From: Pelagibacteraceae bacterium AG-464-P07
GTDB lineage: Bacteria; Pseudomonadota; Alphaproteobacteria; Pelagibacterales; Pelagibacteraceae
DNA: 45,701 nt
Assembly: GCA_003211695.1 (NCBI GenBank)
Contig: QCSA01000010.1
Location: 1 to 45,701, forward strand
Direction: 5' to 3'
Shown: positions 11,404-45,701 of the stretch, in pieces
Position numbering within the stretch: the stretch's first letter is position 1
Layout of the letters: each line of letters opens with the position of its first letter
Notes under the pieces: model-generated
Told to the model about the DNA's origin: nothing
The model's database searches: none
The model's input: only the letters and a program-made list of their open reading frames with translations
Translations under genes and position numbers: made by a program

Positions 11404-12483
11404 ATGACAATAAATAAAAAATATAAAATTTTAATATTCAGAACTGACAGAATAGGGGATCTTATTAATACTTCATCTTTTTTGAAAAGTTTAAAAAATT
11501 ATTATGGGAATTCTGAAATTACTTTAGTTTGTTCGAGTTACAATAGACCTATAGCAGAAAGTTATAAGTTTATTGATAAAATTGTTGTTTACGACAAATC
11601 CTTTTTTTTTTTTAAAAAAATTAAAATTTTTATTAAACTTGTAACATCGTTACATGATATCACTATAACTTTTGATGGCAAAAATTTCTCTTATTTAGTT
11701 TCATTAATTGCTAGAGCTAAACACAAATACGCTATTTGTTTCAAAAAGAAAAAAAGTATTTTTGGGCTAAGTATCAATGTTTTTAGACCATGGATAATTT
11801 TATGTAAAATATTTTTTGACACTTATGTTATCTGCGATGAGAATTATAATAAACAGAATGTAAATTCTGATTTTAATAATCATTATCTTACTATGTATTA
11901 TTATTTATTAAAAAAAAATAATATTGAATTAATTTCTGGAAAACATATTTTTGAAATTGACTCTGATTCTGAATATATATTTAATAAATTTTTTAGTAAA
12001 TATATAAAAAAAGATTTTTTGAGCATTCATATTGATTATAAATGGGATCATTATGATATAAATATAGAAAGATTTAATTCTCTTTTAAAAAAAATATCTT
12101 TAAATAGTAATATAGTTATAAGTTCGGGTGTAGAAGGTTCTAAATTTTTTGAAAAATTAAAAAAAAATTATAATCTTTATTCGTTCAAAGATATGAATAT
12201 TAATTCAAGTAGTTTAATTAATTCAAATATTATATTAATAGAAAATTTATCCATAAATTTATTGGCATGTTTTTTAAATAAGTGCACAGCTCACGTAAGC
12301 TCTCATTCAGGTGCAACCTTCCATATCTCTGCGGCATTTAATAAACCATTAATTGATTTTATAAAAAAAGATAAAGAATCAGAATATGCTAGGTGGATTC
12401 CTCCTGGTATCGATTATAATAGAGCAAGTGTTGATAAATTAGATGATTTAGAAACTATTATTTTTACTAAAATTTCGAATTAA
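11404..12483 (+). CDS. glycosyltransferase family 9 (heptosyltransferase-like)
   Basis: The product has 359 residues. The N-terminal FRTDRIGDLINTSSFLKSLK is the classic GT9 start seen in ADP-heptose:LPS heptosyltransferases, with TLVCSSYNRPIAE next. The C-terminal HVSSHSGATFHISAAFNKP matches the family's nucleotide-sugar site (usual form D.G..H.A...), but with Ser before SG instead of Asp. This points to addition of a sugar to LPS core or another glycan. It is extremely AT-rich, and its 3' end overlaps the convergent integrase gene by 4 bp. Confidence 0.8.
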   Translation: MTINKKYKILIFRTDRIGDLINTSSFLKSLKNYYGNSEITLVCSSYNRPIAESYKFIDKIVVYDKSFFFFKKIKIFIKLVTSLHDITITFDGKNFSYLVSLIARAKHKYAICFKKKKSIFGLSINVFRPWIILCKIFFDTYVICDENYNKQNVNSDFNNHYLTMYYYLLKKNNIELISGKHIFEIDSDSEYIFNKFFSKYIKKDFLSIHIDYKWDHYDINIERFNSLLKKISLNSNIVISSGVEGSKFFEKLKKNYNLYSFKDMNINSSSLINSNIILIENLSINLLACFLNKCTAHVSSHSGATFHISAAFNKPLIDFIKKDKESEYARWIPPGIDYNRASVDKLDDLETIIFTKISN

Positions 12484-13436
12484 ATTTTAATTTTATTTAA
12501 TGCATTATTTTTGAATAAATTTGCCTCTTTAATATAACGTCTAACCATTTGAGTAGTTTTATGACCTGTCATGGCCATTATACTTCTTTCATCTGCGCCG
12601 GATTCTGCAGAGACTGTTGCGAAACCAGATCTTAAACTATGACCTGAATAATTTTTGTTTTCTATGCCTGCAACACCAAGATAACCTTTTAGTAATAATG
12701 CAACTGATTGATCGGTAAGTCGATTTTCGCTCAGTTTAAAACTTTTAGAAAAACGTCTAAATATCGGACCAGAATTAATGTCCGAGAGTTCTATCCATTT
12801 CTTTAAATGCAAAACAGGACAGTATTTTTGATTGGCAAAATAGGGTAGACCTTTAACCATTCCTTCGCCAAATTGGTCAGTCTTTGACCGCCTAATGACT
12901 ATTTTGACACCTTCTGGAACAAATTCTAAATCATTGTAATCAATTGACACCAGTTCAGCTCTTCTAAAACCTCCTCCAAATCCAATAAGAATTATGGTTT
13001 TATCTCTAACTTTTTTGATTTCTTTAGTTTTTTCATTATCTATTACATTAATTATTGCCTTTAACTGATTGATTAATATTGGTTTTTTTCCCTGTTGATA
13101 ACTACCTTTCTTACGCTTAATACCCATTAAATTCTCTATAATTATAGGGTGCTTAGTATCAAGATAATGACCTTTTAGCCTATGAATCATGCCTATTGAA
13201 ACTAGTCTTCGCCTTAAAGTACTAATTTTAGCGTCCTTTGATGATAAGTAAGTTATGTAAAAAGAAACTATTTTTGAATCAGTAGGCAAGGATTTAAAGC
13301 CATTTTTCACGCAGAAAGCTGAGAAATCTTTAAAATCTGACTTGTATGCACGAATAGTATTATATGCCTTAGAACTCTTAAGATTATTTAGAGTTTGTTC
13401 CTGTATTGCTTTTATGTCAGTTATAAGTTTATTCAT
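12480..13436 (-). CDS. tyrosine recombinase / phage-type integrase
   Basis: This 318-residue recombinase has an N-terminal SAM-like core-binding domain (residues about 10-95) and a catalytic domain. The full active site can be read: R158 in GFRRAEL, K185 in RRSKTD, H266 and R269 in GHSLRSG, H292 in MTGHKT and nucleophile Y301 in RRYIKE. It should therefore be active. It is not a XerC/XerD pair member in context: it stands alone between surface-glycan genes and a cyclophilin-fold gene. No excisionase or phage genes are nearby. A short inverted repeat lies just before its start codon. Confidence 0.9.
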   Translation of the reverse strand: MNKLITDIKAIQEQTLNNLKSSKAYNTIRAYKSDFKDFSAFCVKNGFKSLPTDSKIVSFYITYLSSKDAKISTLRRRLVSIGMIHRLKGHYLDTKHPIIIENLMGIKRKKGSYQQGKKPILINQLKAIINVIDNEKTKEIKKVRDKTIILIGFGGGFRRAELVSIDYNDLEFVPEGVKIVIRRSKTDQFGEGMVKGLPYFANQKYCPVLHLKKWIELSDINSGPIFRRFSKSFKLSENRLTDQSVALLLKGYLGVAGIENKNYSGHSLRSGFATVSAESGADERSIMAMTGHKTTQMVRRYIKEANLFKNNALNKIKI

Positions 13437-37574: not shown

Positions 37575-38849
37575 TTAAAAATAACATTTCAATTCTAAAT
37601 AATATTTATCAGATAATCTACCAAACTCACTTTGTATATTTGGATTCTGCCAGTCAGTACCATTAGGTCTATCTCCTATATTGATCTGGCCACCCGCTAT
37701 GAAATCTACATTCTCTGTTATTGATTGAACAAATGAAAAATTGTGCTGATGAGAAGAATCAGCCCAAGCTAACTTAGCGTCGTATCGACCTATTAGTAAT
37801 GGATTAAAGTCGTAGCTTAATGACACTCCACTAAGATGGTCGTTTAGTGAAGTACTCACTCCATTTTTATAACGAATATCAGAGGCATCTAGATTATTAG
37901 AATCTCCTATTCCGTTAAATAAATGTTCCGCTGTAATTTGTAGACTGTTGTTGAAACGATAATTAACACCTAAAACATTCATTAAATAATTTTTGAGTAA
38001 ATTTCCTTGATACGATCCTGGCATCAAAATTTTCTCCGATCCCCATAGGTAAGTCATTTCATCATAAAAATTAACGGAGCCTATTTCGCCATCTATTTCA
38101 ATTCCAATACGATGTCCTTCAGGTTCTCTTTTATACAACAATGCATAATCCGTATCTTGTACAGTCGTATAACCTCTTAACAGTAAACCCACTTCTTCTT
38201 CCAATCCCAACCGTTGGTAAGATTGCGCAGCAGTATTTTCTAAATAACTTCCAGATTGTGTTAGTGTTTTCTGTTTATTGATAACCATATTTACACCACC
38301 AAGATTACTGATTGCTTTATCTAATCTTAGAGCATCTATGCCAGCTTTGTATTCTTGGTTAAGATATGGCTCTCCATAATAATCAAAAAGATTCCAAAAG
38401 AAAGGTTTGCCAAAACTAACTGCAAGCCTACCAAAATGAATATCTAAATCTTGTGCTGCAAATTTAATATTAGCTCGATCAAGATAATAATAGGCCGCTT
38501 GATCGGTATCGGTTTTCTTTGTCCAATTATCATCGAGATCAACAAACAACATCGATGTATCTCTGTCGGTAACTCCAGTGTAAATATTAGAGTAATCATA
38601 CGCTTGTACAGCGTGTAGTTCATATGAATACTCATTATGACTATCCGATTCAATAATAATACGAGCCACTGATGAAAAATCTCGTGCTATATCTTTATCA
38701 AAATAGGGCGCGAAACTATAATTGTCATAAAGTTTATAACCAGTTTGAATACTTCCGCTAATATCTATTAAGGAATCTTGCGCGAAAGATCGAAAGGGTA
38801 AAAAAATTAGAGCGATTAATAGAATCTTTATATATTTATATAAAAACAT
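37575..38849 (-). CDS. outer-membrane beta-barrel protein of the Lol-like operon
   Basis: The product has 424 residues. A signal peptide (1-23, ending SFA-QD) is followed by alternating polar/hydrophobic strands and a C-terminus YYLELKCYF ending in Phe, the BAM-recognition signature of outer-membrane barrels. No named porin family is certain. It is the last gene of the five-gene operon, 12 bp after the ATPase gene. A dedicated barrel next to a LolCDE-like exporter suggests it receives or inserts the exported substrate at the outer membrane; this is inference. Confidence 0.75.
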   Translation of the reverse strand: MFLYKYIKILLIALIFLPFRSFAQDSLIDISGSIQTGYKLYDNYSFAPYFDKDIARDFSSVARIIIESDSHNEYSYELHAVQAYDYSNIYTGVTDRDTSMLFVDLDDNWTKKTDTDQAAYYYLDRANIKFAAQDLDIHFGRLAVSFGKPFFWNLFDYYGEPYLNQEYKAGIDALRLDKAISNLGGVNMVINKQKTLTQSGSYLENTAAQSYQRLGLEEEVGLLLRGYTTVQDTDYALLYKREPEGHRIGIEIDGEIGSVNFYDEMTYLWGSEKILMPGSYQGNLLKNYLMNVLGVNYRFNNSLQITAEHLFNGIGDSNNLDASDIRYKNGVSTSLNDHLSGVSLSYDFNPLLIGRYDAKLAWADSSHQHNFSFVQSITENVDFIAGGQINIGDRPNGTDWQNPNIQSEFGRLSDKYYLELKCYF

Positions 38850-38861
38850 TAATAATAAAAA

Positions 38862-39587
38862 TTATCTTTTTGTATATTTTTCTATATTTTCCGAAGATAT
38901 CTGTTCATTGGTAATTTTGCCATCCTTCAGGACAATAACTTTTTTTGCAAATTTTATTACCGCAGGATCATGAGTTGAAAACAGAAAAGTTGTTTTGTTA
39001 TTTTTATTTAATGTTTCCATTAACTCCAATAGCGATTGGGCCGTTTCTGAATCAACATTAGCTGTTATCTCATCAGCCAATACCAATAATGGATCAGAAA
39101 CAACTGCGCGAGCAATTGCAACTCGTTGTTGTTGGCCACCACTTAATTCACGAGGAAATCTATGTTCAAGACCTTCCAAACCCATTTCTTGAAAAAAATG
39201 CATGACTTTTTCTTTTCGTTGAGAAATTGGTATCTCTTGTAGCATTAACACATATTCTGCATTTTCATAAGCAGTCAAAACGGGAAGTAAATTATAATTT
39301 TGGAATACAAACCCAATATGATTGCGACGTATGATGCTTAAAGCCTTATTTGATAAAGTATTAAAGTCTTTACCATTAAAATTTACTTCCCCACTTGTCG
39401 CTTTATCTAGGCCGCCAATGATGTTTAGTAGAGTACTTTTCCCACTACCTGAAGGACCCATCATTACTGAAAAATCACCTTCAAGTATATTTAATTCAAT
39501 TCCTTGCAAGGCTTTTGTTATAACTTTTCCATGACCGTAATTCTTTATAACATTACGTAAAGATACAATTTCTTTTTTTGTATTCAT
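38862..39587 (-). CDS. ABC transporter ATP-binding protein (LolD/MacB type)
   Basis: The product has 241 residues. Walker A is GPSGSGKST, the Q-loop is in VFQNYNLLP, the signature is LSGGQQQR, Walker B is LLVLADEITANVD and the H-loop is FSTHD. These place it in the mechanotransducing type VII (MacB/LolD/FtsE) group, which uses cytoplasmic ATP hydrolysis to drive periplasmic movements. It overlaps the permease gene upstream by 4 bp, so it is made with the two FtsX-type permeases. Confidence 0.93.
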   Translation of the reverse strand: MNTKKEIVSLRNVIKNYGHGKVITKALQGIELNILEGDFSVMMGPSGSGKSTLLNIIGGLDKATSGEVNFNGKDFNTLSNKALSIIRRNHIGFVFQNYNLLPVLTAYENAEYVLMLQEIPISQRKEKVMHFFQEMGLEGLEHRFPRELSGGQQQRVAIARAVVSDPLLVLADEITANVDSETAQSLLELMETLNKNNKTTFLFSTHDPAVIKFAKKVIVLKDGKITNEQISSENIEKYTKR

Positions 39588-40837
39588 GTAGATCTCAATA
39601 CATCAGTAATTGAAATACGTGATATTAAATATATTGGTAAAATACTTAGTAATTGAACTGCAAGAAAGAAAAAAATGCTGATTTGTAAAATCAGAGGGAT
39701 GGAAAATAAAGGTGTAATGATTGTATCCATTCCAAATCCTCCTACAGTCATATCTTCTGCTTTACCTCCAACTACATCCATCATGTCATAGCCTTCCGTC
39801 CATTTTGCGATACCAACACCCAACAAAGATCCTAAGGGACAAGCAATGAGTCCGAATAATATTGTTTCGATAAAAATTTGAAGTTTCAGTTCTATTGGTT
39901 GTGTTCCAATTGCCAATAGAGAGGCGAACTCCCTTCTGCGCTCAAGAGTTGACATTAAGATAGTGCTAAACATAGTAAAAAGCACAATGACAACCAGCAA
40001 AACCATAATGGATGAAATAGCAGTTCTATCCATACGAATTGTCGTTGCTACATCGGGCATTATTTGCTGCCAAGATAAAAACACTCCATTTTTTTTCGCT
40101 AGTGTTTTCTGCATTTCTTGAAGAAAGCGCTCGTGAGTATCAGGATTTTTTACAATAATACCTAACTGTGAAACATCATTGCTACTTAAACCTGCAACCA
40201 TTCTAGCAATGTCGATATCACTTTGTACAAAATGACCATCAATCTCTTTAGATCCAGTTTTAAAAATGCCTTTGACACGAAATAATTCCTCGATTAATTC
40301 ACCCTTAATATCGTTTGTAGTAAAAACAAATTTTTTCCCAACGTTGACATTGAGACTTTCTGCTAATTTGCTCCCCACGATAACCCAGCGACCATCTCCT
40401 TCTGATAAATATTCTCCTTCGACAATGGATTCTGGTAAATAAGAAATTGTAATTTCTTTTGATGGTTCTATCCCCATTAAAGATATTCCAACAGAACCTT
40501 TGGCTGTATGAGCTACACCCTGTAAATTTACTATTTGTTTTGTTAATAAAACTTCATCATTATTATTTAAAGATTTATTAATTACTTGGATATCATCCAC
40601 CCAAAGATCATTAGAAGGTGAATTACGATAGTTGACATGTTCGTAAGTTACATGTCCTGCCATTAAACGCGCTACATCATCAACAAGTCCAGCGTAAAAT
40701 CCCCACGCAATACATACAAAAAAAGTTGGGATTCCTGTGCCAATTAAAATAGAAAACAATGAAATTAATGTACGTCTTTTATTGCGCCAAATACTGAGCC
40801 ACCCAATTTTTATGATCATTAATAATTTAGATTTCAT
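39584..40837 (-). CDS. FtsX/LolE-type ABC permease
   Basis: The product has 417 residues. One helix near the N-terminus (after WRNKRRTLISL) is followed by a periplasmic MacB_PCD-type domain (about 45-280) and three C-terminal helices, the LolC/LolE/MacB arrangement. RREFASLLAIGTQPIELKLQ is the usual FtsX coupling segment. It overlaps the other permease gene by 4 bp. With that paralogue it should form a heterodimer, as LolC and LolE do. Confidence 0.9.
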   Translation of the reverse strand: MKSKLLMIIKIGWLSIWRNKRRTLISLFSILIGTGIPTFFVCIAWGFYAGLVDDVARLMAGHVTYEHVNYRNSPSNDLWVDDIQVINKSLNNNDEVLLTKQIVNLQGVAHTAKGSVGISLMGIEPSKEITISYLPESIVEGEYLSEGDGRWVIVGSKLAESLNVNVGKKFVFTTNDIKGELIEELFRVKGIFKTGSKEIDGHFVQSDIDIARMVAGLSSNDVSQLGIIVKNPDTHERFLQEMQKTLAKKNGVFLSWQQIMPDVATTIRMDRTAISSIMVLLVVIVLFTMFSTILMSTLERRREFASLLAIGTQPIELKLQIFIETILFGLIACPLGSLLGVGIAKWTEGYDMMDVVGGKAEDMTVGGFGMDTIITPLFSIPLILQISIFFFLAVQLLSILPIYLISRISITDVLRST

Positions 40838-42054
40838 GGTTTATAATGAATGGCCTCCACGGGTTTAATACGAGCTGCAATGCTTGCTGGATATATTGAT
40901 GATAAAATACATACTAACATCAATAACACAACTGGGAGAAAAACAATCCCTGCAGAAACACTTGCTTTCCAAATTGGATCCATAACCACTCCCCCAAAAG
41001 ACATATTCCCGGCGCCGGTAACATCAAATCCAAATTTTTGAAAATATAAAGCTCCACTTAATCCAACAACTACACCAATGACTGAGGCAATAATTGTCAG
41101 CAATAATGACTCTAAGGATACCTGTTTTAAAATTCGCCAGGGTGTTGTTCCAATTGCTCTAATGATTCCAAATTCTCTCATCCGGTCATATGTTGACATG
41201 ATCATTGTGTTCATTAATCCAAGGCTTGCGGCAATACCAAATATTAAACTAAACAAGGTCCGCATAAAAACAATCATTTTTTCTGTCATCAAAGCAATGG
41301 TTGGCATCAGTTGCTGCCAAGTTTTTACATCTAAGCCTGTTGTCTTGGCAGATACAAGTTTTTGTATTTCTTCGGACTCAAGCCTTCCCTTTGAATTTAA
41401 AGCAATTTCATGAATTAAATTATTGGTAGAAAATAAAATATCAAAATCTTCTCTTAAAATCATAGCAGCTCCTCTATCAATGTTATCAGCCATATTTTTT
41501 AATATGCCTGCAACATAAAAAAGTTCATTACCTAACGAACCATCGGCGCCTTGAACAAACACTACCAATTCTGTTCCTATATCCGCTGCTATTGAGCTTG
41601 CTAACTTTCTGCCTAATACAATCTTATTTAAAGATGTATTAGTTAAAAAGTTTCCTTTATCAATGTGGTTAGCAAAATCAAAATGCTGAAGTTCCGACTC
41701 TGGGTTAATTCCCCAAAACTGCGTACCTGCTGATTTTGTTCCTGAAGAAATTAATCCAAATCCATAGCTTCGTTCGACCAAACCGATGTTATTTTCTTTT
41801 GCAACAGAATGTATTTCTTTTATATTTTGTAGTGATTTATATATTGAACGATCATCAAGATAGCCCTTGGCATGAACCTGCACCTCGCCAATAATTAAAT
41901 CCGTCGTAGTAAATTTAGCCTTTTCAATCAATCCCACAATCATAGATTGAAAAACAATTAAAGCAGCAATGCATAAAGCTACAGCTGAGATTGTAACATT
42001 AGTCCTTGTTGGATTACGCCACAAGTTACGCCAACTGAGTTTTATTATTTTCAT
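40834..42054 (-). CDS. FtsX/LolC-type ABC permease
   Basis: The product has 406 residues, with the same four-helix layout as its neighbour: LSWRNLWRNPTRTNVTI at the N-terminus, periplasmic domain at about 45-270, then YDRMREFGIIRAIGTTPWRIL and three helices. It differs in sequence enough to be an ancient duplicate. True LolC needs a hook loop to receive LolA; I could not identify one with confidence. It lies 17 bp after the LolA-like gene. Confidence 0.9.
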   Translation of the reverse strand: MKIIKLSWRNLWRNPTRTNVTISAVALCIAALIVFQSMIVGLIEKAKFTTTDLIIGEVQVHAKGYLDDRSIYKSLQNIKEIHSVAKENNIGLVERSYGFGLISSGTKSAGTQFWGINPESELQHFDFANHIDKGNFLTNTSLNKIVLGRKLASSIAADIGTELVVFVQGADGSLGNELFYVAGILKNMADNIDRGAAMILREDFDILFSTNNLIHEIALNSKGRLESEEIQKLVSAKTTGLDVKTWQQLMPTIALMTEKMIVFMRTLFSLIFGIAASLGLMNTMIMSTYDRMREFGIIRAIGTTPWRILKQVSLESLLLTIIASVIGVVVGLSGALYFQKFGFDVTGAGNMSFGGVVMDPIWKASVSAGIVFLPVVLLMLVCILSSIYPASIAARIKPVEAIHYKP

Positions 42055-42071
42055 AAACTTTTTTACATTCC

Positions 42072-42827
42072 TTATTGTTGTAAATTACGTAAAGAAAAAA
42101 AATCATCATTAATTGGTAAATCAAATTGAATTTTTTTCCATTGAATGGCTGTTGACTCACCTGGTTCATCAACTGGAATCATTGACATCTGAGTTGGCAT
42201 CATCTTACCGCTCATCATTTGAATATTTGTAAAATTTAGTGTACGAGAAAGTTGTAAATCTTCATCATAATAAATTATATGTAATGGAATAAAATCATCA
42301 CGATAAACGATCACTTCTACTTTGCCCCAAACAACTGCTGCGTCCTTTTTTGGATAACATGAAATTTCTACAATATTTTTTTCCTCTCTTTCTCCTTCGT
42401 AGGTAATAGAAAAAGTATAATCTTTAACCATACGTGATTGTTTGACCAGGTCATCATTAGTAAAGTGTGATCCCATCCAAGAAGATGCCATCATGGATGA
42501 GGGAATTTTAACAACTCGCTTAACCTTAGGCATGTAGTTCCAAACATTATTGTCAACACGAAGTGTAGTAAGGCCTTTTTCTTTTTTTGGCTTTAATACT
42601 CTGATCAAATGCCTATCATCTCCTTTGGACCATTGCTCTAACGTAAGAGTTCTTTGCCAATTCGTTGTAGTCACTGATAAGGTAAGAGTGCCGTAACTTG
42701 TATTTGAACGATAAAGATCATCAACGCTATCAAGAATTTTTTCAGGATTTAGATTTGATGCAAAAGCAAAGCTGGAAAGAAAAACTTTAAATAATACACA
42801 AGTAGCAATAATAGTTAATCTCATCAT
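42072..42827 (-). CDS. LolA-like outer-membrane lipoprotein-sorting protein
   Basis: The product has about 251 residues from the ATG at 42827. A signal peptide (ending FAFA-SN) is followed by a LolA/LolB-type beta-sheet domain: LIRVLKPKKEKGLTTLRVD, NVWNYMPKVKRVVKIP and SHFTNDDLVKQSR are typical of the COG2834/LolA_like group. These proteins carry lipoproteins or lipids across the periplasm but are distinct from classical LolA. It is the first gene of the operon. A TTG seven codons upstream is less likely than the double ATG. Confidence 0.85.
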   Translation of the reverse strand: MMRLTIIATCVLFKVFLSSFAFASNLNPEKILDSVDDLYRSNTSYGTLTLSVTTTNWQRTLTLEQWSKGDDRHLIRVLKPKKEKGLTTLRVDNNVWNYMPKVKRVVKIPSSMMASSWMGSHFTNDDLVKQSRMVKDYTFSITYEGEREEKNIVEISCYPKKDAAVVWGKVEVIVYRDDFIPLHIIYYDEDLQLSRTLNFTNIQMMSGKMMPTQMSMIPVDEPGESTAIQWKKIQFDLPINDDFFSLRNLQQ

Positions 42828-42912
42828 AGTAGAAAACTGATCTAACAATATACTTATAATTGTAATCCATAATAAGCAAATTGATATTAATCAATGCATC
42901 TTCTCTGATATT

Positions 42913-43077
42913 TTACTCTAACAAAAAATTTCGGGAAAGTAGCTTCGTGCATTTCTTAGATATAAAACTATATCCAATGCTCATCCCTTCAATCTGAAAG
43001 TCGCTGATATCATCCGCTAAGGATGGGGTTTGGAGGGTGAAGAAGAGGAGGAAAAGGTATATGGATAAACATTTCAT
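42913..43077 (-). pseudogene. truncated copy of the secreted DIRDFQIEG paralogue family
   Basis: From the ATG at 43077 the frame gives 54 residues. The signal peptide (MKCLSIYLFLLFFTLQTPSLA) and the mature start DDISDFQIEGMSIG match the intact gene at 44007-44573 closely. After SIGYSF the sequence no longer resembles the family and soon stops, so only the 5' end survives. It occupies the second-gene position of its array unit, as 44007-44573 does in the other unit. Confidence 0.65.
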
Positions 43078-43097
43078 GGGTTTTCTAGCTTCAACAA

Positions 43098-43124
43098 AGG
43101 GCACGGGCTTATGAGAATTGTGGG
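43098..43124. repeat. partial third copy of the array spacer end
   Basis: AGGGCACGGGCTTATGAGAATTGTGGG matches the last 25 or so bases of the two 135-bp spacers (43975-43999 and 45406-45430) with several changes. It lies between the stop of the 43134 gene and the truncated copy, showing that the array once held at least one more unit boundary here. Confidence 0.5.
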
Positions 43125-43133
43125 TGATAATTT

Positions 43134-43727
43134 TTAATAATTGTCTTCAAAAAATTTTTGAAATTCAGAACTATTAATAACAACATTTAATGCATCCCAT
43201 AAACCTGTTTTTTCTAATTCATCACTCCAATTCGAACAGTAAACTCTTATTATTTCTAAGGGTTTAATTTCAAAGAATATGCCTTCAGCATAAGATTTTC
43301 CAGTCTTATCATTGGGATAATAAGTTTTTGGGTCGTCTATTTTATTTGCTCTTGGTAAAAATTCTTCAATATCTTTAACAACTAATTTTTGTTTTTTTTT
43401 ACAATCATTATAATTACCTTTAAAATAAATTAATCCTGTGAGGCTAGTCAATTTGTATTTATTATCATCAGGTTTCCAGCCAACTTTGACTCCATCATAT
43501 AATTCAAATTTAGGAAGCTTGTAAAAAAGTAATTCTGCAAATTTATTATTTTTATAGTAAAAAATTTCTGCATCCTTTTTGGCTTGATCAAATTCAGATT
43601 CAGTAAAATGATCAAACAAACTATCACCAATGCTAATCCCTTCAATCTGAAAGTCTCGGATATCATCCGCCTGGGATGGGGCTTGCAACATTAAGACTGT
43701 AATTAATATTGTCAGTAGCTTTTTCAT
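43134..43727 (-). CDS. secreted protein of an uncharacterised tandem paralogue family (copy 1)
   Basis: The product has 197 residues from the ATG at 43727. A signal peptide ends ...APSQA before DDIRDFQIEG, so the mature protein should be periplasmic or secreted. The mature part shares ISIGDSL, a Cys pair (DCKKK and VYCSNWSD) and an acidic/aromatic C-terminus with the copies at 44007 and 44578. No known domain is recognised. A longer frame to 43883 exists, but its 52 extra residues run through the spacer, so the later ATG is the true start. A degenerate tRNA-Arg 3' half lies upstream. Confidence 0.8.
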   Translation of the reverse strand: MKKLLTILITVLMLQAPSQADDIRDFQIEGISIGDSLFDHFTESEFDQAKKDAEIFYYKNNKFAELLFYKLPKFELYDGVKVGWKPDDNKYKLTSLTGLIYFKGNYNDCKKKQKLVVKDIEEFLPRANKIDDPKTYYPNDKTGKSYAEGIFFEIKPLEIIRVYCSNWSDELEKTGLWDALNVVINSSEFQKFFEDNY

Positions 43728-43860
43728 GCAAAAATTATACCTCAAAATTGGGACGCAATACAGAACGCAGTCATCTTGCAATTTCTTACTTTTTGCAAAA
43801 AATAAATATTGTAAACAAACAAAACGATGTAAAACGAGATCATTCGTATACCCAATACCT

Positions 43861-43909
43861 CGCATTTCTAAACCGAGGGTCACAAGTTAGAATCTTGTAG
43901 GGCGCGCCA
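43861..43909 (+). pseudogene. degenerate tRNA-Arg(TCT) 3' half (copy B)
   Basis: This fragment contains the anticodon loop TTTCTAA, the 3' anticodon strand ACCGA, a T-arm ACAAG-TTAGAAT-CTTGT, the 3' acceptor strand and CCA (43907-43909). The 5' acceptor and D-arm are missing, and the 5' anticodon strand (TCGCA) no longer pairs at two positions. The T-arm differs from copy C yet still pairs. It is a remnant, not a functional tRNA. Confidence 0.75.
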
Positions 43910-43999
43910 ATTCTAGAGCATATATCCAATATTTGTCGCTCTCCTGTCATACTGAAGAAAGAAATTAGACCACAGGGCACGAGATTATGAGGGCTGTGC
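43865..43999. repeat. 135-bp duplicated spacer with tRNA remnant (copy B)
   Basis: This copy aligns without length change to 45296-45430. Shared blocks include TTTCTAAACCGAGGGTCA, AGGGCGCGCCA, TTCTAGAGCATA, CTCCTGTCA and GATTATGAGGGC. It separates two units of the paralogue array. Both flanks carry family members in the same orientation, so the unit arose by tandem duplication. Confidence 0.8.
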
Positions 44000-44006
44000 G
44001 TGGTTA

Positions 44007-44573
44007 TTAGTATGCATCATCTATTAAAAAATTTACAAATTCAATTAGTCTAACGCCAACTCTTAAATGATCTGTCGACTCATAACTTTTTGAATAGTCA
44101 TAGCAACCTATGAATACCTCATCTTCTTTATCATTTAATAATGCGTAATCTGTTACAGTTCCTTCTGGATCATCATTGTGTTTATAAACGTACTTACCAT
44201 AATCTTTCAACTCAGGTAATGCTTCTTTAATCTCTAGATAAATAGTTTTTGCTTTTTCATAACATTCCTCAATATTACTTCTATATTCAATTGAAGCAGA
44301 AACAGACTTGACTTTATACTGTTTATCATCTGTTAAAAAACTCACATATAATTTATCATATGTCTCAAGTTTTTTATTAAACAATGCAGTTGTATATTTT
44401 TTATTTTTATACCAATCCTGCATTCCATCTTTAATTTCTTTTTTGTTAAAAAAATCTAATAAGCTATCACCAATGCTTATACCTTCTATTTGAACATCTC
44501 TTATATCATCAGCCCAGGATGGAGCTTGGAGGGTGAAGAGGAGGAGAAAGAGGTATAGAGATAAACGTTTCAT
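44007..44573 (-). CDS. secreted protein of the tandem paralogue family (copy 2)
   Basis: The product has 188 residues from the ATG at 44573, just after the stop of the upstream paralogue (44578). The signal peptide MKRLSLYLFLLLFTLQAPSWA precedes DDIRDVQIEGISIGDSLLDFF. The conserved cysteines lie in EECYEK and FIGCYDYSK. Its signal sequence differs from copies 1 and 3 and matches the truncated copy at 42913, so the array has two subtypes in alternating order. An upstream ATG at 44597 would overlap the previous gene and lengthen the signal region without need. Confidence 0.8.
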   Translation of the reverse strand: MKRLSLYLFLLLFTLQAPSWADDIRDVQIEGISIGDSLLDFFNKKEIKDGMQDWYKNKKYTTALFNKKLETYDKLYVSFLTDDKQYKVKSVSASIEYRSNIEECYEKAKTIYLEIKEALPELKDYGKYVYKHNDDPEGTVTDYALLNDKEDEVFIGCYDYSKSYESTDHLRVGVRLIEFVNFLIDDAY

Positions 44574-44577
44574 GAAT

Positions 44578-45171
44578 TTATTCCCAGGCTTCATCATTAA
44601 TCCATTTTCTGTATTCTATTGTACTAAGAAAGAATCTTAAATGATCAATATAATTATCTTTTCTAAATTTATCGCTCCACTCAATACACACGATTCGTGC
44701 GATTTCTCCTGTATGAAAAGCAAAGTCAGTGGAATAAATTTTGGATTCACCAGTTATATCTTCATCATGTTTTCTTGTATATGATCTAACCGTTGATAAT
44801 TCACTAAAGAGTTCTGTTACTTTAGAAACTATTTCGTCTTTCTTTTTAAGACAACCGTCAATATTATTTAGAAAATCTAAAGCTGCTCCTAAATTATAAA
44901 TTATATAATTTTTATCATCAGATTTAAAACCAAGAATAAGAGCATCATAAACTTCTAATTTTGAATAAGTGGATTCAATAGTTAAATCAAAAAATTTTTT
45001 GCTACCTGAATAATCGAGTCTGTAAAAATTTTTTATTTCGTCCTCACTAAAATAATCTAGCAAACTATCTCCGATGCTCATTCCTTCTATCTGAAAGTCT
45101 CTGATATCATCCGCCTGGGATGAGGTTTGTAGCGTTAAGATCAAAATCAGTATTGCCAGAAACTTTTTCAT
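44578..45171 (-). CDS. secreted protein of the tandem paralogue family (copy 3)
   Basis: The product has 197 residues, the same length as copy 1. The signal peptide MKKFLAILILILTLQTSSQA is followed by DDIRDFQIEGMSIGDSLLDYF. The conserved Cys positions are DGCLKKK and RIVCIEWSDK, and the C-terminus ends in INDEAWE. The start codon is preceded by a spacer with the tRNA-Arg 3' half. It is cotranscribed with copy 2, which begins 4 bp after its stop. The function is unknown; the two cysteines could form a disulfide. Confidence 0.82.
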   Translation of the reverse strand: MKKFLAILILILTLQTSSQADDIRDFQIEGMSIGDSLLDYFSEDEIKNFYRLDYSGSKKFFDLTIESTYSKLEVYDALILGFKSDDKNYIIYNLGAALDFLNNIDGCLKKKDEIVSKVTELFSELSTVRSYTRKHDEDITGESKIYSTDFAFHTGEIARIVCIEWSDKFRKDNYIDHLRFFLSTIEYRKWINDEAWE

Positions 45172-45281
45172 GCAAAAATTCTACTACAAATCCCTTGTCA
45201 CAACCATGACACAACGCAACACAAGTTTTGATCATTTTGTTGAAGTATTTAATGACGAATGTTTGTTTTCTAAGGATTTTT

Positions 45282-45340
45282 GATAGAGCATCGGTTTTCT
45301 AAACCGAGGGTCAGAGGTTCGAATCCTCTAGGGCGCGCCA
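45282..45340 (+). pseudogene. tRNA-Arg(TCT) 3' fragment (copy C)
   Basis: It spans GATAGAGCA of the D-arm, an intact anticodon arm TCGGT-TTTCTAA-ACCGA (anticodon TCT), the T-arm AGAGG-TTCGAAT-CCTCT, the 3' acceptor strand and CCA (45338-45340). The 5' acceptor strand and most of the D-arm are missing: upstream bases do not pair with AGGGCGC. Such 3' pieces are what remains at the distal end of elements that integrate into tRNA genes. Confidence 0.85.
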
Positions 45341-45430
45341 TTTCTAGAGCATACATCCAGAGTTAGTCACACTCCTGTCACACTGAGAAATGAAATTAGG
45401 CCACAGGGCACGGGATTATGAGGGCCGTGC
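45296..45430. repeat. 135-bp duplicated spacer with tRNA remnant (copy C)
   Basis: This is the partner of 43865-43999. It ends at the hairpin just before the stop codon of the partial gene at 45431. Copy C keeps more of the tRNA structure, so it is probably closer to the ancestral form. Confidence 0.8.
45408..45430. other. hairpin at the end of the array spacer
   Basis: GCACGG and CCGTGC form a 6-bp stem around an 11-nt loop, GATTATGAGGG. Copy B (43977-43999) keeps four pairs plus a G-U. It lies right after the stop of each upstream paralogue on the minus strand. It lacks a T-run, so it may be an mRNA 3'-end stabiliser or a recombination mark rather than a terminator. Confidence 0.45.
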
Positions 45431-45701
45431 TCAATTTTTTGCAACTAACCAATCATTCAATTCTTTTGAACTTAAAACTACTTTAAAATTACTTTGGTAT
45501 GGCATATCTTTATGCCAATCATAACATTCAATAAGAACTGCATCCTCTGATTGTTTGAAAATAAATACAGCCTGTCTTACTTTACTTCGTCCCGATTTAT
45601 CAGCTCTATGTTTACCTTTTCGTACAGGTTTTTTTTCTTGATTTTTGAACATTTGTGAAAGTTCATTAATAACTTTATCCTGGTGTTTAAAACATGCTTC
45701 A
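45431..45701 (-). CDS. secreted paralogue family member, 5' end cut by window (copy 4)
   Basis: The frame remains open to the window edge, so 89 C-terminal residues are visible and the real start lies outside. EACFKHQDKVINELSQ matches the Cys-Lys helix of the other copies, and VLIECYDWHKD matches their second Cys segment (compare VFIGCYDYSK of copy 2). A basic stretch (KKPVRKGKHRADKSGRSK) replaces the acidic linker seen in other copies. An ATG at 45652 is internal, not a start. Confidence 0.75.
   Translation of the reverse strand, partial: EACFKHQDKVINELSQMFKNQEKKPVRKGKHRADKSGRSKVRQAVFIFKQSEDAVLIECYDWHKDMPYQSNFKVVLSSKELNDWLVAKN

Follow-up and report, generated by a model that had tools for sequence, protein, structure and literature searches.

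The window analysed here, a stretch of 45,701 nucleotides (nt) from Pelagibacteraceae bacterium AG-464-P07 (GenBank assembly GCA_003211695.1, contig QCSA01000010.1), is the complete contig C10 of a genome assembly of 1.14 Mb (46 contigs, 83% complete). Its right-hand end carries a run of genes for an uncharacterised family of secreted proteins, and we consider it very probable that this end is, in a SAR11 bacterium, a stack of small cassettes targeted to transfer RNA (tRNA) genes, which lack an integrase and probably depend on temperate pelagiphages for mobilisation in trans. Each cassette would consist of a phage-type attachment (att) site, made of the 3' core of a tRNA or transfer-messenger RNA (tmRNA) with short arm repeats on both sides, plus one or two short genes. 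It would integrate at a tRNA or tmRNA gene, restore that gene and leave a displaced 3' copy on the far side, and serial insertions would build arrays with tRNA fragments between the units. Since the cassettes have no integrase of their own, they are probably moved in trans; temperate pelagiphage integrases would perform this step, and one cassette type matches the att site of such phages (attP).

Gene pairs and tRNA-Arg fragments in the window

A preliminary description of this DNA, based on its letters alone, had seen five members of an uncharacterised secreted family in a row on the minus strand (positions 42913-45701), which is borne out by open reading frame (ORF) positions and protein matches. 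It had read the run as a tandem gene family and had overlooked that each gene-pair unit has at its end the 3' part of a tRNA-Arg(TCT) and, behind it, paired 11-bp repeats. Because such fragments and arm-type repeats lie inside the units, the interpretation of the array changes, and the genes are read here as cargo of cassettes at tRNA or tmRNA sites. The features of the array are as follows.

45431-45701, minus strand: C-terminal part of a family copy in a B-type position, truncated where the contig ends
44578-45171, minus strand: family gene A1, secreted protein of 197 aa (ORF and protein matches)
44007-44573, minus strand: family gene B1, 188 aa, start codon 4 nt beyond the A1 stop
43134-43727, minus strand: family gene A2, secreted protein of 197 aa (ORF and protein matches)
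42913-43077, minus strand: family gene Bt, a truncated copy that retains the signal peptide and no more than the first ~20 residues of the mature protein
45265-45337, plus strand: tRNA-Arg(TCT)-like fragment at a unit junction, 3' half intact to CCA and 5' part degenerate, a displaced tRNA copy
43865-43909, plus strand: more decayed tRNA-Arg(TCT) 3' fragment at the other unit junction (89% over 45 nt)
45361-45385, plus strand: right arm-type repeats AGTCACACTCC/TGTCACACTGA (at 45365) with an 11-bp period, located on the 3' side of the tRNA fragment and within the 140-nt repeat
43933-43956, plus strand: right arm-type repeats TTGTCGCTCTCCTGTCATACTG at the left-hand junction; their flank resembles the one beside the intact tRNA-Arg(TCT) of a genome from the same genus
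45190-45225, plus strand: left arm-type repeats TTGTCACAACCATGACACAACGCAACACAAG, between the A1 start and the tRNA fragment
45402-45430, plus strand: conserved hairpin-like element GGGCACGGGATTATGAGGGCCGTGC, directly past the stop of a B-type gene; also at 43971-43995 and, weaker, at 43095-43115

The units are separated by a direct repeat of 140 nt (43860-43999 and 45291-45430, 84% identity) that starts with the 3' half of tRNA-Arg(TCT), reaching CCA. The fragment at 45265-45337 was 98% identical to the tRNA-Arg(TCT) query and scored 32.5 bits with the Rfam tRNA model, barely over threshold; it was not called as a tRNA by ARAGORN. A left arm pair, TGTCACAACCA/TGACACAACGC, was found on the other side of the tRNA fragment, before the A1 start. 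When the AG-464-P07 genome was searched for the anticodon-arm pattern of tRNA-Arg(TCT), it was detected only at the two window junctions and at C18:252 and C26:1342 (one mismatch).

The alternation of two signal-peptide subtypes noted in the preliminary description was confirmed, with A-type proteins of the form MKKxLxILI..Q and B-type proteins of the form MKRLxLYLFLxxFTLQ..W/L. It was seen again on contig C18, the first bases of which are 91% identical to the window junction region. The proposal that the duplicated unit is a gene pair also holds, as the units are spaced by 1444 and 1431 nt (~1.43 kb). The sequence of the remnant Bt is corrected to DDISDFQIEGMSIGYS; Bt diverges from the family beyond ..IEGMSIGYS. 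The proteins are related far past chance (A1 versus A2, 38% identity, E 5e-33; A1 versus B1, 39% identity, E 9e-29), and A1 matches 10 places in its own genome.

An array of this kind might also have arisen by ordinary tandem duplication of the secreted gene pair through unequal crossing over, with the tRNA pieces carried along. Units of 1431-1444 nt, the flanks of which are 82-84% identical, would suit such an origin, as would the long arrays of other genomes with their operon-like gaps of 0-20 nt. By contrast, the gene bodies are only 37-39% identical compared to 82-91% for the flanks, and overall we regard this explanation as improbable.

Target duplications and empty sites at other tRNA genes

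Full-length family genes were found on contigs C5, C7 and C9 at 91-137 nt from intact genes for tRNA-Leu(caa), tRNA-Gly(gcc) and tRNA-Leu(tag), respectively, and on the far side of each family gene lies a partial copy of that same tRNA. These copies cover 56 nt at 98% identity on C5, 23 nt at 100% on C7 (where a second copy, 67 nt at 91%, is more distant) and 64 nt at 98% on C9. The elements bounded by the tRNA and its displaced copy are about 0.8-1 kb in length (0.82-0.96 kb), hold one gene each and have paired repeats at both ends, such as TACACGTCTCA/TACACGTTGGT on the tRNA side and CATACACGTCT/CATACACGCAA past the gene. The same arrangement of an intact gene and a displaced copy was detected in other genomes at tRNA-Ser(gga), tRNA-Thr(tgt), tRNA-Gly(gcc) and the tmRNA gene ssrA; at ssrA sites, small units are separated by as many as eight core copies. 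Period-11 matches (at least 8/9) were found behind 10 of the 16 tRNA or tmRNA genes with a family gene just 3', compared to 6 of 52 others (Fisher p 1.2e-4). In the window itself, only displaced tRNA copies were seen.

Related genomes provide the corresponding empty sites. The distance from tRNA-Leu(tag) to tig is 5-13 nt in 11 relatives, compared to 966 nt in AG-464-P07, where the interval is made up of the cassette and the displaced tRNA copy. The tRNA-Arg(TCT) gene directly precedes core genes in two more distant relatives (G009 and G020), and in two same-genus genomes an island separates the intact tRNA-Arg(TCT) from a displaced 3' copy at a distance of 3-5 kb. When the flank of the intact tRNA-Arg(TCT) of genome G003 was aligned with the window junction, a score of 27 was obtained compared to a shuffle maximum of 16.5, and the cargo of the two differs; thus, the att site is common to both and the cargo has been exchanged. 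Taken together, the target duplications, the arms at both ends and the two tRNA loci with empty sites (of which one concerns a one-gene cassette) strongly suggest, at the level of sequence comparison, an anatomy of site-specific integration. We conclude that the secreted family is a recurrent cargo of integrase-less tRNA-targeted cassettes.

The same observations bear on tandem duplication. Single copies at three tRNAs of the AG-464-P07 genome each duplicate their own, distinct tRNA, different cargo is present on the same att flank, and the tig site is empty in relatives. As the target duplications at different tRNAs are independent, tandem duplication is refuted as the sole mechanism; it can still account for local array growth.

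The secreted family is a frequent cargo and not the only one, as seen from nine ssrA islands whose units carry one to a few small genes. Judged by a crude rule for hydrophobicity, many of these genes start with a stretch resembling a signal peptide, and a gene for a membrane-protein-like product (MNFTKSIEVCFNKFANFEGRA...) is commonly found among them. At two loci (L119, 5689-6594; L112, 5020-6579), near-alike signal peptides are borne by unrelated neighbouring cargo proteins, as though the signal peptide were a shared module. On contig C18 (locus L036, 980-11072), the cargo beside a family copy includes an SNase, a PLD-like protein, a PrsW protease, a CII-like protein, a trypsin-like protease and a protein with a weak match to the membrane domain of neurotransmitter-gated channels. 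Duplications of the 5' half of a tRNA, and not the 3' half, were observed at tRNA-Leu(taa) and one tRNA-Gly (L055, L082, L084, L092, L093, L096 and L121) and may represent a second class of target site.

In the window, positions 37575-42848 adjoin the array and hold an ATP-binding cassette (ABC) transporter operon with an outer-membrane lipoprotein-like gene. As the permease of this operon (40834-42054) has only weak paralogues in relatives, the operon may be island cargo too. A SAM-V riboswitch is located farther away at 2319-2384 on the minus strand (Rfam, 63 bits), in keeping with a marine alphaproteobacterial origin.

Phage attachment sites, integrases and array growth

A scan of viral contigs for the tRNA-Leu core led to L170, a podovirus-like contig that encodes a T7-type terminase domain together with a tyrosine integrase of 427 aa, the closest isolates of which are the Pelagibacter phages HTVC025P, HTVC041P and HTVC011P (33-41% identity). 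In the att region of L170, TGTTGC occurs three times, at spacings of 12 and 19 nt and 82 nt ahead of the T-loop, and the Leu(tag) cassette of AG-464-P07 has three TGTTGC sites with identical spacings and an identical 82-nt distance. Outside the tRNA, the left and right arm regions of L170 and this cassette aligned with scores of 29.5 and 22, compared to shuffle maxima of 19 and 14.5. Among 61 genomes, the pattern TGTTGC-N6-TGTTGC-N13-TGTTGC had a single occurrence, which is the Leu(tag) cassette. The TGTTGC arm pattern is carried by 34 viral contigs, 20 of which were examined; an integrase homologue with its stop 124-203 nt before the arm pattern was found in 15, no integrase match was detected within the stretch examined for the other 5, and a short tRNA-Leu(tag) anticodon core was present behind the arm pattern in all 20. 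Unlike its close relatives L265, L271 and L281, L170 has a tRNA 3' half past the core, as would be expected if it were an integrated form. Mobilisation by a phage integrase is well supported by these matches for the Leu(tag) cassette type, and the other cassette types would presumably be mobilised in a like manner.

The tRNA-Arg(TCT) core was detected in twelve viral contigs, most of which have an integrase-like ORF nearby and a similar anatomy with different arms; one of the twelve (L214) seems to carry tRNA genes and the others are phage-like. A phage type that serves tRNA-Arg(TCT) would be expected from the cassettes at this site. Two other cores were considered as phage att sites and set aside. 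The eight viral contigs with a tmRNA (ssrA) core, L135-L142, apparently have phage-borne tmRNA-like genes (GCAGATGAAAATCTAGCACTTGCGGCC) with no arms beside them, and the two hits to the tRNA-Gly(gcc) core are of a single sequence type without arms.

No integrase was recognised in the window array, the single-copy elements or the listed ssrA units, where Pfam was applied to the genes of C18 and not to every neighbouring ORF. A single PF00589 hit was obtained in the AG-464-P07 genome, and it corresponds to a Xer-like gene located in the window at 12480-13436. Among 26 genomes with family loci, one PF00589 hit was found in 18, none in 6, two in G076 (one of these below the cut-off) and three in G067 (two of these pieces of one ORF); incomplete assemblies may conceal further integrases.

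The islands could alternatively be decayed prophages or large genomic islands, with the family as a leftover of once-integrated phages. Pelagiphages that integrate at tRNAs do exist (HTVC022P integrates at tRNA-Cys, as cited in PMC12753301), prophage-like junctions are present in the viral contigs L170 and L154, and a CII-like gene is found on C18. By contrast, no family member was detected in the viral contigs (by pattern scan) or in 50,697 phage records, and the elements are complete at 0.8-1 kb, with arms at both ends and without a phage gene. A prophage origin is thus quite improbable in our judgement.

Several observations weigh against reading the window end as a stack of phage-mobilised cassettes. 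Neither cassette movement nor an excised circle was seen. An intact tRNA-Arg(TCT) was not found in the AG-464-P07 assembly (83% complete), in which all four sites of the anticodon-arm pattern are non-intact, and the contig ends inside the array. The arm scan of viral contigs detected none with the arms of the window plus the tRNA-Arg(TCT) core; as the contigs with this core have other arms, the helper phage of the window units was not found among them. In the long arrays of other genomes, the spacers show a single arm-like motif without an evident tRNA core, and the period-11 signal is not above that of other periods. Finally, the fold comparison of the secreted protein gave Salmonella DcrB as best (Z 6.6 over 95 residues) among many tied unrelated rows.

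The family has a patchy distribution: its profile matched at least 27 of 347 Pelagibacterales genomes and at least 9 of 151 good ones, counts that are lower bounds since at most 9 candidates were scored per genome, and gave no match in the single-contig genomes listed. Together with the comparison of loci, this supports the earlier expectation that the copies vary in number and are not orthologous across relatives. A total of 302 ORFs of the family were counted in the loci sampled, and tandem arrays reach at least 11 copies, as seen within 12.6 kb of L074. Gaps between same-strand family neighbours are bimodal, at about -60 to 20 nt or at 104-122 nt. In the long-array spacers (~115 nt), a TCATAA element that is similar to the window hairpin trails the genes, mostly 9-20 nt past the stop (32/68), and Rfam gave no tRNA match. 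In L085 (4075-9507), for example, a TCATAA hairpin-like element past the stop is accompanied by TTGACACACATAGG(N)CACAGTGAGAAAGTG with TTGACA; the nine-copy array of this locus is preceded by two ssrA fragments. The hairpin-like element of the window is possibly a decayed tRNA(CAU) half. As a tRNA(CAU) signature in the spacers, the TCATAA element was rejected, the tRNA(CAU)-like spacing in 8/68 being insufficient to assert it. Because the spacers are without a clear tRNA core and period 11 does not lead, ordinary tandem duplication may account for some of the expansion, and the long arrays may have grown in this way following an integration.

In most long-array spacers TTGACA lies exactly 36 nt ahead of the start codon, and this motif may be a promoter, an arm site or both. 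Such a fixed position would agree with a regulatory explanation, by which strong promoters or terminators of tRNA genes, represented by the paired repeats and tRNA remnants, were recruited for expression of the secreted genes, as would the three copies in AG-464-P07 that follow a same-strand tRNA by 91-137 nt. By contrast, family genes are also oriented opposite to the tRNA, no regulatory role would explain why displaced 3' tRNA copies lie on the far side, and the arms of a phage attP match one cassette. A regulatory origin appears very improbable to us.

The secreted protein and comparison with known systems

The preliminary description had envisaged a conserved export or docking tag with diversifying cargo and a body free to vary. 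Instead, the protein was found to be a signal peptide followed by a single domain, with about 170 mature residues. The mature protein, DDIRDFQIEG included, forms one conserved domain that is modelled with confidence (AlphaFold2 with 103 relatives: predicted local distance difference test, pLDDT, 91; predicted template modelling score, pTM, 0.84), and its residues I28 and C107 are invariant and C162 and a GDS motif nearly so. C107 and C162 probably pair with each other, and the protein is predicted to be located in the periplasm or outside the cell. The 5' coding block may have undergone recent gene conversion, although the same-codon fraction of full-length pairs (0.35-0.79 for the N-terminus versus 0.52-0.77 for the body) did not show an excess.

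The view that this secreted family is without a characterised relative was upheld, as profile searches against Pfam, NCBIfam and PADLOC gave no named family. Matches to Pfam, NCBIfam, PADLOC and PDB sequences were at chance level or absent, PADLOC models did not match any of 14 family members at E 0.01, and two unnamed PHROGs families each matched one member. Fold matches to PsbP and Mog1 had Z of about 5-6, identity across the weak fold matches was 3-13%, and the best Foldseek E was 1.2e-3. The best BFVD row, an Erwinia phage lipoprotein (E 1e-5, template modelling score 0.45-0.48), was too weak to use. The domain is possibly PsbP/DcrB-like: PsbP, Mog1 and DcrB-like domains share an approximate alpha/beta arrangement with the model, and DcrB and PsbP are also exported, whereas Z of 6.6 or lower, the low identity and the lack of a sequence match set them apart.

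As the fold matches are weak, the role of the protein is only a guess. One proposal, to which we give an even chance, is that it serves envelope competition or nutrient binding, for example as a ligand-binding periplasmic domain, and is unrelated to phages. The weak PsbP/Mog1/DcrB-like matches, which are not phage-specific, and the small secreted or membrane proteins that make up most cassette neighbours would agree with this role. Nothing speaks directly against it; an arms race is a somewhat better match for the patchiness, the copy multiplicity and the att site of phage type. Our favoured guess, a weak one to which we give well below an even chance, is that the protein shields the cell surface against phage entry (phage exclusion) or acts in another surface contest. 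The phage-facing role suggested earlier may thus still apply, now by way of an att site in common with pelagiphages.

The cassettes resemble the additive flexible genomic islands in which cassettes are seated at a tRNA, separated by repeats of its 3' end and filled mostly with unknown genes. In Alteromonas, cassettes are added to such islands by site-directed recombination (PMC5217437), and the Methylophilaceae additive island fGI-2, in which the final 20 bp of tRNA-Lys are repeated, ranges from 330 bp to 42 kb with 1-63 coding sequences (PMC10872708). Cassettes at tRNAs, separated by tRNA 3'-end repeats, are also what is found in SAR11. Different here are the use of many tRNAs and ssrA within one order, the recurrence of single-gene cassettes of one secreted family, the definition of arm-type repeats at both ends and the match of one att site to a phage attP. 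Prochlorococcus tycheposons likewise place cargo at tRNAs of streamlined marine bacteria by a tyrosine-recombinase logic; according to the part of PMC10872708 that describes them, they are 4-200 kb with a tyrosine recombinase, whereas the cassettes here are 0.8-1.5 kb with no recombinase inside. Temperate pelagiphages of the HTVC019P, HTVC025P and HTVC011P kind have a tRNA core and arm repeats beside an integrase, with the Leu(tag) type common to one cassette, whereas the cassettes are without a phage gene or integrase. Compared to phage satellites such as phage-inducible chromosomal islands, the window units and single-copy elements have only one or two small secreted-protein genes and none for an integrase, replication or packaging interference.

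Integron cassettes work in a similar manner, with one ORF and one recombination site stacked in arrays, whereas here a tRNA-cored attP flanked by arms takes the place of a folded attC, and insertion is at chromosomal tRNAs. No integrase of the IntI type was found beside the window array in this 83% complete assembly, and a 2007 study of SAR11 reported no attC sites at hypervariable regions, one of which is flanked by tRNAs (PMC2217521). We put forward tentatively, as a possibility short of even, an integron-like shuttle in which minimal attP-plus-ORF units, each with a single gene for the highly varied secreted protein, parasitise the integrases of temperate pelagiphages, enter numerous tRNA genes as well as ssrA and become stacked in arrays, while the cargo may protect the host against those phages. 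In the literature searched, which covered few subscription journals, nothing was found on this family or on integrase-less SAR11 cassettes. The minimal attP-plus-gene cassettes are a new form of tRNA-site accretion.

SAR11 bacteria are among the most abundant cells of the ocean and have streamlined genomes; to our knowledge, their acquisition of flexible genes is poorly explained. The cassettes define a large unnamed family of secreted proteins with a confident structural model. If the proposed mechanism is true, cassettes with phage att sites would be a concrete route of gene gain in SAR11 with a nameable integrase, core, arms and empty sites, and the phage would become a vehicle for surface proteins of its host.

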